A DNA stretch of 21,168 bases from a virus. The position numbers and the translations under genes are program-made. The stretch is from positions 1 through 21,168 of IMG/VR virus record IMGVR_UViG_3300017751_000307, one strand, 5' to 3'. Below are positions 6,064-10,481 of the stretch, in pieces. Position 1 is the stretch's first letter. The number at the start of each line of letters is the position of its first letter. Below the pieces are notes generated by a model, which was not told where the DNA came from, ran no database searches, and was given only the letters and a program-made list of their open reading frames with translations.

Positions 6064-8607
6064 TTAAGCTCCCATTAATCCAAATTGGTTAATATTACTT
6101 TTCTCTTGTGTTTTGGTAATACGAGAGGTAATTTTTTCATTATCTATATAAACATCTTTATTTGCCGTAGATACATTTGTTAATTCTTTTATGGCGTTTA
6201 CTACCTCACTCATATCAGTACCAGCTACTTGTTTAGCTGCACCAACTATATCACCACTTGCAGCCATTTGAGATATCGTTCCCATTTCAGTTTCCTCAAT
6301 AGGAGATTTTGCTGCCATTATTGGGTTATCTTTGTAATTCCCATAAGCTTCTTGTTCTTGTACTGATGCATCAGCAGGAGGTCTTACAGTTTCTGTTTCT
6401 TCTGTATCATCTCCGCCAAAGAAACTACCAAACCATCCTAGCGTATCCTTTATTTGGTCATATATGAAAGTACCTAAACCACTAAATACTGATTTAATAC
6501 CTTCCCATAGAGTAGTAACTATATTACCTACCATTTCAACCATACTACCAAGAATACCACTTACCATTTCACCAAATCCAATATCTCCTTTGAAGAAATC
6601 TATAATATATCCAAATGTATTAGCGATATGTGTGATTACATCTCCTATTGCTTTGAAAGCAGTTCCAACAACAGTACCTACAATATTACCAAGAAAAGAA
6701 AATGTACGATTCATAATATCCATTAACTTACCACTATCCCCTTTAGGTGAAAATATTTTAGCAAATAAATCCTGTATAGGTTTAAGAGCATTCATCATAG
6801 CATCAAATCCAGGTTTTAATGCACCCATAAAAGCTTCTATTGTTTTTCCAATTCCTTTGAATAAAAAACTAGTAATAGATACTATTGGTTTTATAACGGC
6901 TGTTAATATTTTACCTGCACCTGATAGAATAGGTACAAGACCAGATAACGCACCCATTAGTACTTCACCAATAGGTAAAAATGCTTGTGTTAGTGATGCA
7001 CCCAATGCTGAAACTTTATTACCTAAAGATTCTAATCTACCTTGTCTTTCTTCTTCTAATGCTAATTTATCAGTTGCGGCTGCAATCTCTTCTTTACTCA
7101 TATTAGAGATATCCATTCCAGCTTTAAGTGCCTTTTGTAAAAGTTTTCCTCTTTCACCTTCTGTACTTAATCCTAGTTCTTGGATTCTAGCCATGTTTTG
7201 CATCTCACCAAGAGTCATACCTGTTGCTTTTTCAAGAGCTTCTTGTTCAAATACACTCATGTTTTGTAAATCAACTTGGTTTCTAAGTTGTTCTACCATC
7301 GATGCTTGTGCACCAACTACATCACCTTGAGCTGCAAGATAACGAGATTGAGAGAAGTTTAAGTTAGTACCTAAGATAGCACTAGCTTCCATTTCACCAC
7401 CAATTGAATCTTGGTAGTTTAATAAACCACGAGATACCTCTACTGCCTTTTTAAGAGATGTACCTAATTTAGCTGCATTTATTGCTGCAGCTCCCATCGC
7501 TTGTACATTTCCTCTAAAGAATCCATTTGCATCTTCCGCCGATTCTGCAATATCAGCCATTACTTTACCTGGAGCAACTCCTGCTTGTTTAGCTAAGTGA
7601 GTTAATGATTCTAAGTTAGATTGAGCAACTTCTTCACTCATTCCACTCATGTTTTGGAATGCTTTATTTAATTTTGCTGCATCTTGTGTTGAAACCCCAA
7701 AGTTCTTACTAAGAACTGTCATGGATTTCATTGTATTTGCAGCTGGTTGTTCAATACCACCAAATTCGTTTGTGAAATCAGCTGCTGCTTTAGCAACATC
7801 TTCCATCGATGCACCTAATCCAACAGTTTCTAAATAGACGGAATTTATATTCCCTTCCATTTCTTTGGTTTGAGAATTTAGTAATCCAGTCTCATCCCTA
7901 AATGCTTTTGCACCAGCCTCCATGTTTGCAAATGCCTTAATAGCTAAGGCTATTACAGCAACAATTCCAAATATAATTGCTTGAGGACCTGTTAACATTG
8001 CAACACCCATTGCTCTAAACCCTCCTATGGAAGATTTAACAAATCCCATGATACCAGCCTTTCCTCCTGCAGCTGCAGCAGAAAAACCAGTAACAAAACG
8101 TTTTGCAGAATCAGAAATAGCACCTTTCATTGATTCAAGAGGACCTGAGGTTATACTTTGAAGCATTCCACCCAATACAGGTATACTTCCAAGTGAACTC
8201 TGAAACCCATCAAGACCAGAAGTTAAGGTATCTGAAAGTCTCATAGCTTTGGAATCTAATTCGTTAGTTAACTTTAACCTTTCTGAATCTGCAGATAAGA
8301 TATCAATATTTGCTTGAACTTCTTTTTGTTTTTGTGGAAGAAGTTTTTTATTTGCACCAAAATATCGTTTAGATAATCCAGCTTTTTGTTTTTCTAGTGC
8401 TAAGATTGCATCTTGAGTAGATTCATAATCAGTTGCACCTGAATTTATACTTTTTAATCTATTATTAAATTCCTTTTGAGCATCAGATACTTTTTTTTGA
8501 GATTTTTCAGTATCATCAATCATTTTATTTAACGCACCGGTTAATGATTGAGATACTTGTAAAGCCTCATTATATTCTTTCTGAATTTCTGCCTTTGATT
8601 TTGCCAT
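6064..8607 (-). CDS. Tail tape measure protein (847 aa)
   Basis: This is the longest alpha-helical protein in the tail cluster. It sets tail length by stretching through the tube and is ejected ahead of the DNA. Residues 1-130 are charged and coiled-coil-like (Lys/Glu/Gln heptads); residues about 204-226 form a membrane-like hydrophobic segment (QAIIFGIVAVIALAIKAF); residues about 225-520 are Ala/Met-rich helices; residues about 530-740 hold further hydrophobic, Gly-containing segments and several Trp/Phe clusters, which fits membrane insertion during ejection. At roughly 0.15 nm per residue, 847 residues predict a tail of about 125 nm. It is preceded by the frameshifted gp26-like region and a small basic protein, the classic place for a tape measure. 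The start at 8607 lies 3 bp after the previous stop and has no strong Shine-Dalgarno sequence. Confidence 0.88.
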   Translation of the reverse strand: MAKSKAEIQKEYNEALQVSQSLTGALNKMIDDTEKSQKKVSDAQKEFNNRLKSINSGATDYESTQDAILALEKQKAGLSKRYFGANKKLLPQKQKEVQANIDILSADSERLKLTNELDSKAMRLSDTLTSGLDGFQSSLGSIPVLGGMLQSITSGPLESMKGAISDSAKRFVTGFSAAAAGGKAGIMGFVKSSIGGFRAMGVAMLTGPQAIIFGIVAVIALAIKAFANMEAGAKAFRDETGLLNSQTKEMEGNINSVYLETVGLGASMEDVAKAAADFTNEFGGIEQPAANTMKSMTVLSKNFGVSTQDAAKLNKAFQNMSGMSEEVAQSNLESLTHLAKQAGVAPGKVMADIAESAEDANGFFRGNVQAMGAAAINAAKLGTSLKKAVEVSRGLLNYQDSIGGEMEASAILGTNLNFSQSRYLAAQGDVVGAQASMVEQLRNQVDLQNMSVFEQEALEKATGMTLGEMQNMARIQELGLSTEGERGKLLQKALKAGMDISNMSKEEIAAATDKLALEEERQGRLESLGNKVSALGASLTQAFLPIGEVLMGALSGLVPILSGAGKILTAVIKPIVSITSFLFKGIGKTIEAFMGALKPGFDAMMNALKPIQDLFAKIFSPKGDSGKLMDIMNRTFSFLGNIVGTVVGTAFKAIGDVITHIANTFGYIIDFFKGDIGFGEMVSGILGSMVEMVGNIVTTLWEGIKSVFSGLGTFIYDQIKDTLGWFGSFFGGDDTEETETVRPPADASVQEQEAYGNYKDNPIMAAKSPIEETEMGTISQMAASGDIVGAAKQVAGTDMSEVVNAIKELTNVSTANKDVYIDNEKITSRITKTQEKSNINQFGLMGA

Positions 8608-8610
8608 CTA

Positions 8611-8850
8611 TTAAAGTCCAGCGTATTTCTTAAGTTCTTTTGGAATTTTAACTCCTGCTTTTTCTGCATCAATAATTGATTTTCTCATTTTATCCTGTGC
8701 AGAATCTAGATTATCTACTGCCTTTTTGAAATCATTATCTTTCTTTAATAATTTTCCAAGTTTTCTGGCAAATAATCTACTTATAATACCTTCGTTTTGA
8801 AAGTATGGTTTGGATTTAAGTTCTCTTAATTGTTTTTTAGTTATCTTCAT
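8611..8850 (-). CDS. Small basic helical protein upstream of the tape measure (79 aa)
   Basis: I do not recognise this family. The protein is short, lysine-rich and almost wholly helical (MKITKKQLRELKSKPYF, later DFKKAVDNLDSAQDKMRK), without cysteines or a membrane segment. The ATG at 8850-8848 is chosen because GGAG lies six bases upstream; a TTG at 8862, in frame, would include that ribosome-binding site and is rejected. The gene is first in the tape-measure operon: a terminator (8888-8918) and the CTATATTTATAG element (8871-8882) lie immediately upstream, and the tape measure starts 3 bp after its stop. It may be a tape-measure chaperone or a tail terminator/assembly helper, but this rests on position alone. 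Confidence 0.7.
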   Translation of the reverse strand: MKITKKQLRELKSKPYFQNEGIISRLFARKLGKLLKKDNDFKKAVDNLDSAQDKMRKSIIDAEKAGVKIPKELKKYAGL

Positions 8851-8887: not shown

Positions 8888-8918
8888 AAAAAAAGTGAGG
8901 AATTATTTCCTCACTCTT
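8888..8918 (-). terminator. Rho-independent terminator after the gp26-like/frameshift region
   Basis: On the minus strand the arms at 8918-8907 and 8902-8891 pair over 12 bp (one G-U pair) around the loop ATAA, followed by a T tract (8894-8888). The 5' arm encodes the last residues and the stop codon of the frameshifted frame. This separates the sheath/tube/gp26 side from the tape-measure operon. Confidence 0.85.
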
Positions 8919-9145
8919 ACATTTGGCCCCTTTGGGGAAGAGCCTTGTTGTTGTTTTTGAGATTTTTTTACTTGTTCTTGCTCTTTTTTCTTAGCATCAG
9001 CAAGTTGTTTATAATAAAACATTCTAATGTGGACTGGTAAACGATAAACTCCTTCTTGAGTAAACCCATTACCATAATAACACATTTCAAAAATCTGTTG
9101 ATGGAGTATAACTGAGTAGTTACTCGGTAGGCCAAAAAAACCCAA
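8903..9145 (-). CDS. Out-of-frame extension of the gp26-like protein (76 aa added by +1/-2 frameshift)
   Basis: An open frame shifted by one base relative to the gp26-like gene overlaps its end and continues to a TAA at 8905-8903. The only start codon inside the overlap is a TTG at 9145; its upstream GGGAG is too close to serve it, and the next Met, at the end of QQIFEM, lacks a Shine-Dalgarno sequence. The frame's upstream limit is a TGA near 9168, so ribosomes must enter within the overlap, where seven T (minus strand) occur. Crossing there yields GLPSNYSVILHQQIFEM, aromatic-rich helices (GVYRLPVHIRMFYYKQL), then a Lys/Gln-rich tail. It resembles the C-terminal extensions made by frameshifting in tail assembly chaperones next to tape measure genes. 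A separately initiated small protein is the alternative. Confidence 0.65.
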   Translation of the reverse strand: MGFFGLPSNYSVILHQQIFEMCYYGNGFTQEGVYRLPVHIRMFYYKQLADAKKKEQEQVKKSQKQQQGSSPKGPNVRVRK

Positions 9146-9878
9146 CTCCCATAGGGATGTTTTTCACCTCCACATCTCCTGTTTGTTCATCCTCGAAATC
9201 GAATTCCATATTGATATCAGGTGTTATCTTAGCAATGTATTCTCTGAATGCTCTAGTATCACGAGTAATGAATTTGTTATTAATGAAGTTAGTGATAGAT
9301 TTTGTATCAGATTCACCATTTACTGAAAGAATCATGTATCTATATCTTGTAGTAAGTTCTGCTGATACACTACCCTTGTTTAATCTCTGTAATGCTTTTA
9401 TATCAGCATCTATCTTTGATTCATCTCCATGAGTTAGAATCTTAAATTCTAATTCATCTTTTCCATGTGGTGTAGTGAAATCGTATTTATTTTCAGAAGA
9501 TAATAAATCAAAATCAATTTCTTTTGTTTGTACTTTACCTAAATCAACAATAACCTCTTGCTGTTCTCCCAATGAGTTTAGTACTTCTATTTTGTATTCA
9601 GGTCCATAACCTAATACACGAGTTGCTAATAATATTGCGTTTTTATCCCCTAATACAATATCATCTATATTAATTTCTTTTTCAACTATAATTGATTCGA
9701 AAAGCCGGTCTATCACTACCCCCTTTCTCACTAGATTCTGCGATGCAAGAATTTCTTCTTCACGAGCAGTCATATATTTAATCTCAACGGTTCCCTTCGA
9801 GAGAGGATTACTCTCAGGATAACACTTACCTTGTGAGGGTAGTGAGATGATTTCTGTTGGAAAATCATAATTTGCCAT
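9120..9878 (-). CDS. T4 gp26-like baseplate hub/assembly protein (252 aa)
   Basis: The N-terminus carries the gp26 family pattern: LPSQGKCYPESNPLSKGTVE, then YMTAREEEILASQNLVRKG, then VIDRLFESII, as in T4 gp26 and its marine phage relatives. Members act in baseplate hub assembly; the position just before the tape measure also fits a tail assembly chaperone role. The rest alternates strands and helices and ends MGVGFFWPTE. The 0-frame codons GGG TTT TTT TGG near the end contain the proposed slip site, so two products are predicted: 252 residues, and about 324 residues after the shift. The ATG at 9878 has no clear Shine-Dalgarno sequence; the TATATTTATA element lies about 24 bases upstream, and a strong terminator separates the gene from the tail tube gene. 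Confidence 0.8.
   Translation of the reverse strand: MANYDFPTEIISLPSQGKCYPESNPLSKGTVEIKYMTAREEEILASQNLVRKGVVIDRLFESIIVEKEINIDDIVLGDKNAILLATRVLGYGPEYKIEVLNSLGEQQEVIVDLGKVQTKEIDFDLLSSENKYDFTTPHGKDELEFKILTHGDESKIDADIKALQRLNKGSVSAELTTRYRYMILSVNGESDTKSITNFINNKFITRDTRAFREYIAKITPDINMEFDFEDEQTGDVEVKNIPMGVGFFWPTE
9134..9140 (-). other. Candidate frameshift slip site (T7 run)
   Basis: On the minus strand the gp26-like codons are GGG TTT TTT TGG. A Phe-tRNA on the second TTT can move +1 (or -2) within the seven T and re-pair perfectly; the next codon in the new frame is then GGC and reading continues for 76 codons. A -1 shift would not enter that frame. GGAG lies about eight bases before the slip codon and could act as an internal stimulator. 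The gp26 stop TAA follows within four codons. Confidence 0.6.
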
Positions 9879-9901: not shown

Positions 9902-9912
9902 ATATAAATATA
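9902..9912 (-). promoter_or_regulatory. Candidate late promoter (TATATTTATA) for the gp26-like gene
   Basis: The minus strand reads ATATATTTATATA around 9914-9902, with the core shared with 8871-8882 and 10504-10515. It lies between the tail tube terminator and the ATG at 9878, about 24 bases from it. No -33 TTG box is visible. Confidence 0.45.
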
Positions 9913-9930: not shown

Positions 9931-9963
9931 AAAAAAAAAAGGTTCTCACTAAGAGAACCTTTT
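9931..9963 (-). terminator. Rho-independent terminator of the sheath-tube transcript
   Basis: On the minus strand AAAAGGTTCTC (9963-9953) pairs with GAGAACCTTTT (9947-9937) around TTAGT, an 11-bp perfect stem followed by a run of ten T (9940-9931). It lies 30 bases after the tail tube stop. On the plus strand it is followed by a short T run and might also work, but no plus-strand gene needs it. Confidence 0.9.
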
Positions 9964-9992: not shown

Positions 9993-10481
9993 TTAGTATT
10001 CTAATATAGCGTAATCGTATGAAAGAGTTAAAGTAATTTCAGATGGGTCATTTGAACTCCAATCTAAATCATTAAATACTGCACTGTTAATAAATGCACC
10101 TTTAATTTTCCAATTTTCGATTTTATCTCCAACTGGTCCTAACATATAGATATCGATATCTTTTTTATAGAAATCTGCATATCCATCTCTACCTGTAATA
10201 GATTCGTGTGATGTTCTCACCCATTCCATTACTTGTTGTGCTCCACTTGGAACGATTGGGTCGTATAGAGTAACCTCTATATCTTGCCATTCACCTTTAC
10301 CTTTTAATTTTCTCTTTACGTTGATATGGTCTAGAACAACAGGTTCAAATGTAATTGAAGGTCTGTTAGCCGCTTTAATAAGATAAGAAGCGATACCATC
10401 AATTTCCATGATGTATCTGTTCTTCATCTTCGGTTCGAAGTTCGTGTAGAACATATCGTTAAATTCTAATACTTCTGCCAT
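9993..10481 (-). CDS. gp19: Tail tube protein, T4 gp19 type (162 aa)
   Basis: The subunit of the inner tail tube, polymerised as stacked hexamers on the baseplate initiator inside the sheath. Its length (162) matches T4 gp19 (163). Visible family features are the N-terminal NRYIMEIDGI strand, RPSITFEPVVLDHINVKRK, WQDIEVTLYDPI, the central helix VMEWVRTSHE, and the C-terminal WKIKGAFINSAVFNDLDWSS followed by EITLTLSYDYA. The ATG at 10481 has AGGAG at good spacing and the CTATATTTATAG element 22 bases upstream. It follows the sheath gene by 55 bp, the standard sheath-tube order, and is ended by a strong terminator, which suits a highly expressed structural gene. Confidence 0.92.
   Translation of the reverse strand: MAEVLEFNDMFYTNFEPKMKNRYIMEIDGIASYLIKAANRPSITFEPVVLDHINVKRKLKGKGEWQDIEVTLYDPIVPSGAQQVMEWVRTSHESITGRDGYADFYKKDIDIYMLGPVGDKIENWKIKGAFINSAVFNDLDWSSNDPSEITLTLSYDYAILEY

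Follow-up and report, generated by a model that had tools for sequence, protein, structure and literature searches.

The question raised by this locus is whether a gp26-like gene situated before the tape measure gene of an uncultured phage encodes one tail protein or two. The window, namely the whole stretch of DNA that was analyzed, comprises positions 1-21,168 (21,168 nt) of the IMG/VR record IMGVR_UViG_3300017751_000307 and is one metagenomic contig. We consider it very probable that the locus is a single gene of the T4 gp26/gp51 family of tail assembly chaperones, expressed as a short form and, by a +1 slip at UUU-Y, as a long form. The +1 frame relation, the slip site, the selection on both frames, the lack of independent starts, the gene order and the family membership are based on sequence; from these we infer that the shift takes place in cells, as well as its efficiency and the chaperone role.

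The tail gene cluster and the frame junction

A contractile-tail cluster is located on the minus strand of the window, in the order sheath-like gene, tail tube gene, gp26-like gene, shifted frame, small ORF and tape measure gene:

12912-10537, minus: sheath-like ORF, assigned by position and size
9993..10481, minus: tail tube protein (gp19-like), next gene upstream of the gp26-like gene (PF06841, E = 6.9e-10; phrog_4542, E = 5.7e-31)
9937..9963, minus: predicted terminator-like hairpin between the tail tube and gp26-like genes
9903..9912, minus: TATATTTATA, candidate late-promoter-like box 5' of the gp26-like gene (exact copy)
9120..9878, minus: gp26-like gene, frame 0, short product of 252 aa ("G" or TAC-N; phrog_150, baseplate hub, E = 1.1e-6)
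9166..9171, minus: GGAGGT, Shine-Dalgarno-like tract 26 nt 5' of T1, candidate stimulator by enrichment in relatives
9129..9143, minus: slip site GGG TTT TTT TGG CCT (T1-T7 at 9140-9134)
8903..9133, minus: +1-frame coding region, candidate "T" domain of 76 codons plus stop (fused product of about 324 aa)
8891..8918, minus: intrinsic-terminator-like hairpin (12-pair stem) across the stop codon of the +1 frame, with a T run behind it
8611..8850, minus: small ORF of about 80 aa, 3' of the shifted frame and 5' of the tape measure gene
6064..8607, minus: tail length tape measure protein, 847 aa (phrog_58, E = 2.9e-7; phrog_991; phrog_167)

The gp26-like ORF ends with ATG GGA GTT GGG TTT TTT TGG CCT ACC GAG TAA, with the stop codon at 9122-9120. 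From 9133 onward, the +1 frame (equivalently -2) reads GGC CTA CCG AGT AAC and remains open for 76 codons until the TAA at 8905-8903, its translation continuing GLPSNYSVILHQQIFEMCYYGNGFTQEGVYRLPVHIRMFYYKQ... Reading of the minus strand thereby bore out the preliminary description, which had reported a gp26-like frame overlapping a start-less frame open for 76 codons. The GGAG that it placed just upstream of the slip site is also present, as GGGAG at 9150-9146, and a better GGAGG is located at 9171-9167.

The sequence TATATTTATA occurs in four exact copies in the window (8881-8872, 9912-9903, 10514-10505 and 14098-14089, all minus), each just 5' of a gene start (ORF 8850, the gp26-like gene, the tail tube gene and ORF 14055, respectively). 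With one mismatch allowed, it showed no over-representation across the window. It resembles the late promoter box of T4-type phages and may function as a promoter. The hairpin across the +1-frame stop codon has an equivalent in 26 of 28 relatives, and given the terminator-like hairpins on both flanks, the gp26-like gene and the shifted frame look like one transcription unit. Profile comparison with Pfam and PHROG gave no convincing family match for the small ORF that follows.

The order tail tube, gp26-like gene, shifted frame and tape measure is common to Flavobacterium, Listeria and Bacillus phages. The annotation of phages immuto, SP-15 and LIS04 likewise puts the gp26-like locus between the tail tube and tape measure genes, while in Microcystis phage Mel-JY01 the tail tube gene is followed by the gp26-like gene and then by the shifted frame. 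The position between tail tube and tape measure genes, a mark of G/GT pairs, is also found in the window. A single-protein scan of genome contigs led to one match, a contig of a Saprospiraceae MAG, which is too little for naming a host.

Two other ORFs of the window deserve a mention. The one at 15394-14123 (minus) encodes what looks like a structural protein; inside it is a Hint/intein-like segment (CLSLDTPVTKADG ... ANGYITHNKGG), and there is a weak match to an intein family (E = 0.0018). The one at 20021-18660 (minus) encodes a fibre-like protein with many degenerate DNAIDSEHYTDGSID repeats, the C-terminus of which looks, by eye only, like a self-cleaving peptidase S74 chaperone (SSDKRLKENI...).

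Conservation of the junction and rival explanations

Conservation was assessed by comparing 257 junctions, with 170 distinct junctions in the +1 clade, and it speaks for function well beyond coincidence. Searching IMG/VR with the downstream domain led to 80 loci. In all 80 of these close relatives TTTTTTTGGCCT is present, the frame offset is unchanged and the stop codon of frame 0 starts 18 nt past the first T. Four gp26-like proteins, from Flavobacterium phage immuto, Microcystis phage Mel-JY01, Streptococcus phage GXN1 and the uncultured phage LR756508, were also used as queries and yielded at least 181 further, more distant loci, 176 of which have a readable junction. Among the matches listed, the offset of the downstream domain is +1 in 173 of these 176, again at the Phe-Phe/Leu site, the slip site being TTT TTT TGG (115), TTT CTT TGG (34), TTC TTT TGG (14) or, more rarely, TTT CTA TGG (4), CTT TTT TGG (3), TTT TTT TAC (2) and TTT CTT TAC (1). 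Every distinct junction among the matches listed has the +1 offset and, in frame, a TTT with T or C as the next base (170/170 for both), so that tRNA-Phe would be able to re-pair one base forward. Distant isolates agree (GXN1 with TTC TTT CGT, SP-15 with TTT TTT CAC), as does the uncultured LR756508 with TTT CTA TTC, and LIS04 (TTT TTT AGT) agrees at the first Phe codon. According to a quick tree of 97 proteins, in which many branches are open, the slip variants represent repeated changes and TTT CTA arose three times separately. A +1 site whose A-site codon is a sense codon is thereby available in hundreds of natural versions; few such bacterial sites are known to us.

The slip site was also studied at its synonymous positions in 32 non-redundant relatives of the window clade, over 81 codon columns of the gp26-like frame that are degenerate and invariant in amino acid. 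Only four of the 81 columns show a single codon throughout, namely Phe TTT, Phe TTT, Pro CCT and, about 30 nt further 5', a GAG, and three of these four belong to the slip site. In the other Phe columns of the gene, TTC makes up about one third. The constancy of CCT can be explained by the Leu of the shifted frame, while frame-0 coding would not explain that of the two TTT codons. Past the frame-0 stop codon, the +1 frame has a pN/pS of 0.31, as opposed to 0.96 and 1.36 when the same DNA is read in its two remaining frames; with a pN/pS of 0.30 for the gp26-like frame, purifying selection on the two coding frames is equal. An overlapping second frame with a conserved recoding site and without a start of its own, as in G/GT pairs, is therefore present at this locus. 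Such selection (pN/pS of 0.31), together with an offset that is the same in about 250 contigs and also in isolate genomes, leaves a negligible probability that the +1 frame is a pseudogene or a sequencing artefact, an idea that the origin of the window from a single metagenomic contig might have suggested.

A separate gene with its own start, or reached by coupled reinitiation, is highly improbable as well, although several features could be read in its favor. In the window, a TTG is in frame at the slip site and an ATG follows 17 codons into the domain, small ORFs are annotated apart in immuto and Mel-JY01, and the sister loci L259 and L264 carry the domain as an ATG-started ORF with an N-terminal extension. 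The TTG, which overlaps the slip site, is the sole in-frame start-like codon ahead of the shared domain; it has no Shine-Dalgarno sequence at a usable distance and is present only in relatives with GTT GGG, and we regard it as an accident of these two codons. A stop three codons before GGC closes the +1 frame in 24 of 50 distinct close loci, with no start codon in between. An ATG is missing up to residue 17 in 42 of the 50 loci and up to residue 45 in 35 of them, and the protein region 5' of the window's internal ATG is conserved. As for L259 and L264, the in-frame TTT-Y has been lost there and they form the sole clade with its own ATG among the matches listed, which indicates that the fusion is not kept everywhere.

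If the downstream domain is reached from the gp26-like frame, the same frame could also result from a programmed -2 slippage of the ribosome on the T run, as in Mu, or from RNA polymerase dropping one T of the seven, which would leave some mRNAs in frame. The preliminary description had pointed out that seven T allow perfect re-pairing after either a +1 or a -2 slip, and of these two directions we favor +1. In the window and the other T7 loci, tRNA-Phe can indeed re-pair two bases back, and among the matches listed this applies to 132 of 170 distinct junctions. However, the clades with TTC TTT TGG and TTT CTT TGG, to which immuto (TTT CTT TGG) conforms, as well as GXN1 (TTC TTT CGT), keep the frame where -2 pairing fails; for this reason the direction is read as +1, and we judge -2 slippage very unlikely. 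Polymerase slippage is very unlikely too: a tract of seven T is possible, if short, and deletion of one base yields exactly the observed frame, but the offset is unchanged at homologous sites in which the longest run is three or four T (38 of 170 distinct junctions among the matches listed), where such slippage is implausible. We know of no slippage at T runs of three or four. A run length varying at random between relatives had been named beforehand as a point against recoding; the length does vary between clades (seven, six, four or three T among distinct junctions), yet the offset and the TTT-Y remain constant. Both -2 and polymerase slippage would be possible only at loci with a long T run, and all the +1 sites found would be covered by one mechanism, in which peptidyl-tRNA-Phe moves one base forward from UUU to UUY.

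According to the favored +1 reading, standard translation would give the short form of 252 aa, and a fraction of the ribosomes would slip one base forward near the end of the short frame, with tRNA-Phe on UUU followed by U or C. In the window the peptidyl-tRNA-Phe would move from UUU to UUU, and across relatives from UUU to UUY. Ribosomes that have slipped would read GGC CUA CCG... and produce the long form, whose C-terminal domain is helical and 76 residues long. Lambda gpG/gpGT suggests, by analogy, that the abundant short form may cover the tape measure protein and that tail tube subunits may be recruited by the scarce long form. As was first suspected, the best reading is that a gp26-type gene next to the tape measure gene gives rise to a G/GT-like pair by programmed frameshifting, in view of the conserved offset, the selection and the lack of a start. 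The direction can be told from the junction peptide, as +1 implies two Phe in the window (...GVGFFGLPSNYS) and -2 implies three (...GVGFFFGLPSNYS), while for Mel-JY01 ...VNFFGLSNEYR is expected for +1 and ...VNFFFGLSNEYR for -2. Immuto and Mel-JY01 are cultured phages, which makes the frameshift testable. The database records of the isolates have no frameshift annotation, and such chaperone genes lack their C-terminal domain in databases.

The very distant members LR756511 (locus L087) and L269 require a -1 shift, with T TTT TTC at the same Phe-Phe position. The direction of the shift therefore seems to have switched within the family.

Candidate stimulators of the shift

Shine-Dalgarno-like sequences are enriched at -36..-27 from the slip site above synonymous-codon expectation in several clades, with none near -10. 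The enrichment z was -17 with 118 sequences, -9 with 46 and -5.8 with 21 sequences below 60% identity, as three cuts of redundancy were applied. The tract is absent in some clades and is kept in the split loci L259 and L264. Its spacing (26-36 nt upstream) is unlike that of prfB or dnaX, and we know of no stimulator acting at this distance. As a speculation, a distance of 26-36 nt would suit a second ribosome kept waiting behind the one that slips. RNAalifold on 27 junctions gave four pairs only and no covariation, so a stimulatory RNA structure is not supported. A wider reading can be proposed, in which the T4 gp26 family harbors an unrecognised and very widespread class of +1 sites (UUU-Y plus a sense codon), with -1/+1 switching at the same Phe-Phe position and with a Shine-Dalgarno-like tract that, at roughly the length of one ribosome 5' of the site, would stimulate the shift by holding or slowing the trailing ribosome; as a whole, we find this doubtful.

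The gp26/gp51 family and known recoding systems

The short product of the window is homologous to T4 gp26 and gp51 through phrog_150, a "baseplate hub" family that it matches with the E-value given above and that its relatives match with E-values down to 2.9e-31. T4 gp26 (E = 6.7e-71) and gp51 (E = 2.6e-84) also belong to phrog_150 and both match PF12322 too, as do the gp26-like proteins of SP-15, GXN1, LR756508 and LR756511 with both families; PF12322 does not reach the window protein itself. Concerning coverage of phrog_150, gp51 extends to position 280 and gp26 to 235 only, and the fusions of Mel-JY01 and LR756508 extend the match to 273-274, in the gp51-only part, with a small gain of 2-3 bits. 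Comparison of the downstream domain with the gp51 C-terminus by hhalign was weak (E = 0.04, probability 1%), and the full fusion alignment against ten gp51 sequences gave no reliable match by hhalign. The family matched by most members of the downstream domain is phrog_634 (gp51), weakly and with a best E-value of 0.0074. In a MAFFT alignment the downstream frame falls opposite the gp51 C-terminus, an alignment that is no proof by itself.

The short form and the downstream domain were modelled apart with AlphaFold2, giving pLDDT values of 92 for the short form and 85 for the domain, which is predicted as all-helical with three helices. Viral structural neighbors of the short form are "baseplate hub" proteins of T4-like phages. 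Against 991 PDB chains, VIA-align ranked YqbN first (3klu; Z 5.3, rmsd 3.5, 81 residues) and the HK97 tail assembly chaperone second (2ob9; Z 4.2, rmsd 3.7, 81 residues), both spanning residues 129-221 of the short form and both with Z under the tool's secure level of 8. The PDB title of 3klu does not say so, but we take YqbN to be a phage tail chaperone. With Foldseek, the HK97 chaperone was not significant for the short form (E = 2.3), and the downstream domain had no significant match among viral models. Searching by sequence, no solved relative was found for T4 gp51 or the fusion profile.

According to Atkins et al. (2016; PMC5009743), T4 is the exception to a wide conservation of the G-T tail chaperone frameshift among long-tailed phages, and gp26 and gp51 are listed as hub assembly chaperones in a T4 tail review of 2010 (PMC3004832). 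The earlier remark that no standard description of this kind was known for a T4 gp26-type protein needs correction, since a chaperone description exists: as cited in PMC10885494 (PRFect) and PMC12846349, Vladimirov, Gautam and Davidson (Virology 2022, 566:9-15) describe the chaperone genes of T4-like phages as a short and a long gene without frameshifting, gp26 and gp51 of T4 being TAC-N and TAC-NC. The locus presented here resembles T4 gp26/gp51 in family (phrog_150) and in having a short form without and a long form with a C-terminal domain. In T4, however, these are two separate genes that are not adjacent to the tape measure gene, whereas here one +1-shifted gene occupies the interval between tail tube and tape measure.

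Tail chaperone shifts of the lambda type are mostly -1 at X XXY YYZ. In contrast to lambda gpG/gpGT, the shift here would be +1 at UUU-Y, and the likeness claims no sequence similarity; among the matches listed, a downstream frame at -1 is found only in LR756511 and L269. The prfB gene of E. coli uses a +1 frameshift at CUU UGA, with a stop codon in the A site and a Shine-Dalgarno sequence 3 nt upstream. Here too, a P-site tRNA would slip forward onto an overlapping codon that is rich in U, and sites of the immuto type contain CUU U. The differences from prfB are that the A-site codon is a sense codon (TGG or TAC), that the Shine-Dalgarno-like tract lies 26-36 nt upstream and not 3 nt from the P-site codon, and that no autoregulation is implied.

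The tail chaperone locus of Vandenendeviridae and Andersonviridae has a -1 shift at GTTTTT, and the Adele paper reports poly-T -1 sites as known in TAC-N genes of T4-like phages (both PMC12846349). The present locus shares with that of these two families a T-rich slip site where the chaperone gene ends, but the direction here is opposite; LR756511 and L269 (-1, T TTT TTC) probably correspond to the poly-T -1 kind of T4-like phages. HF1-like and HSTV-2 haloviruses have a probable +1 shift at TTT-CGC before the tape measure gene (PMC7230728; PMC5009743). The probable +1 direction, the tRNA-Phe on TTT-C and the chaperone position are common features, and TTT CGT of GXN1 is nearly the same site, although these are archaeal viruses, likened by site and position and not by homology to the gp26 family. 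The open-access literature that was searched yielded no account of +1 shifting in the gp26 family, and a +1 shift conserved by a large phage group in genes of the T4 gp26/gp51 family, alongside -1 in a distant branch, appears to be new. A large group of uncultured phages thus appears to make from one gene the pair of gp26-family chaperones for which T4 uses two, and if the family is made by frameshifting here, two-gene and one-gene solutions coexist, so that their order of origin can be asked.
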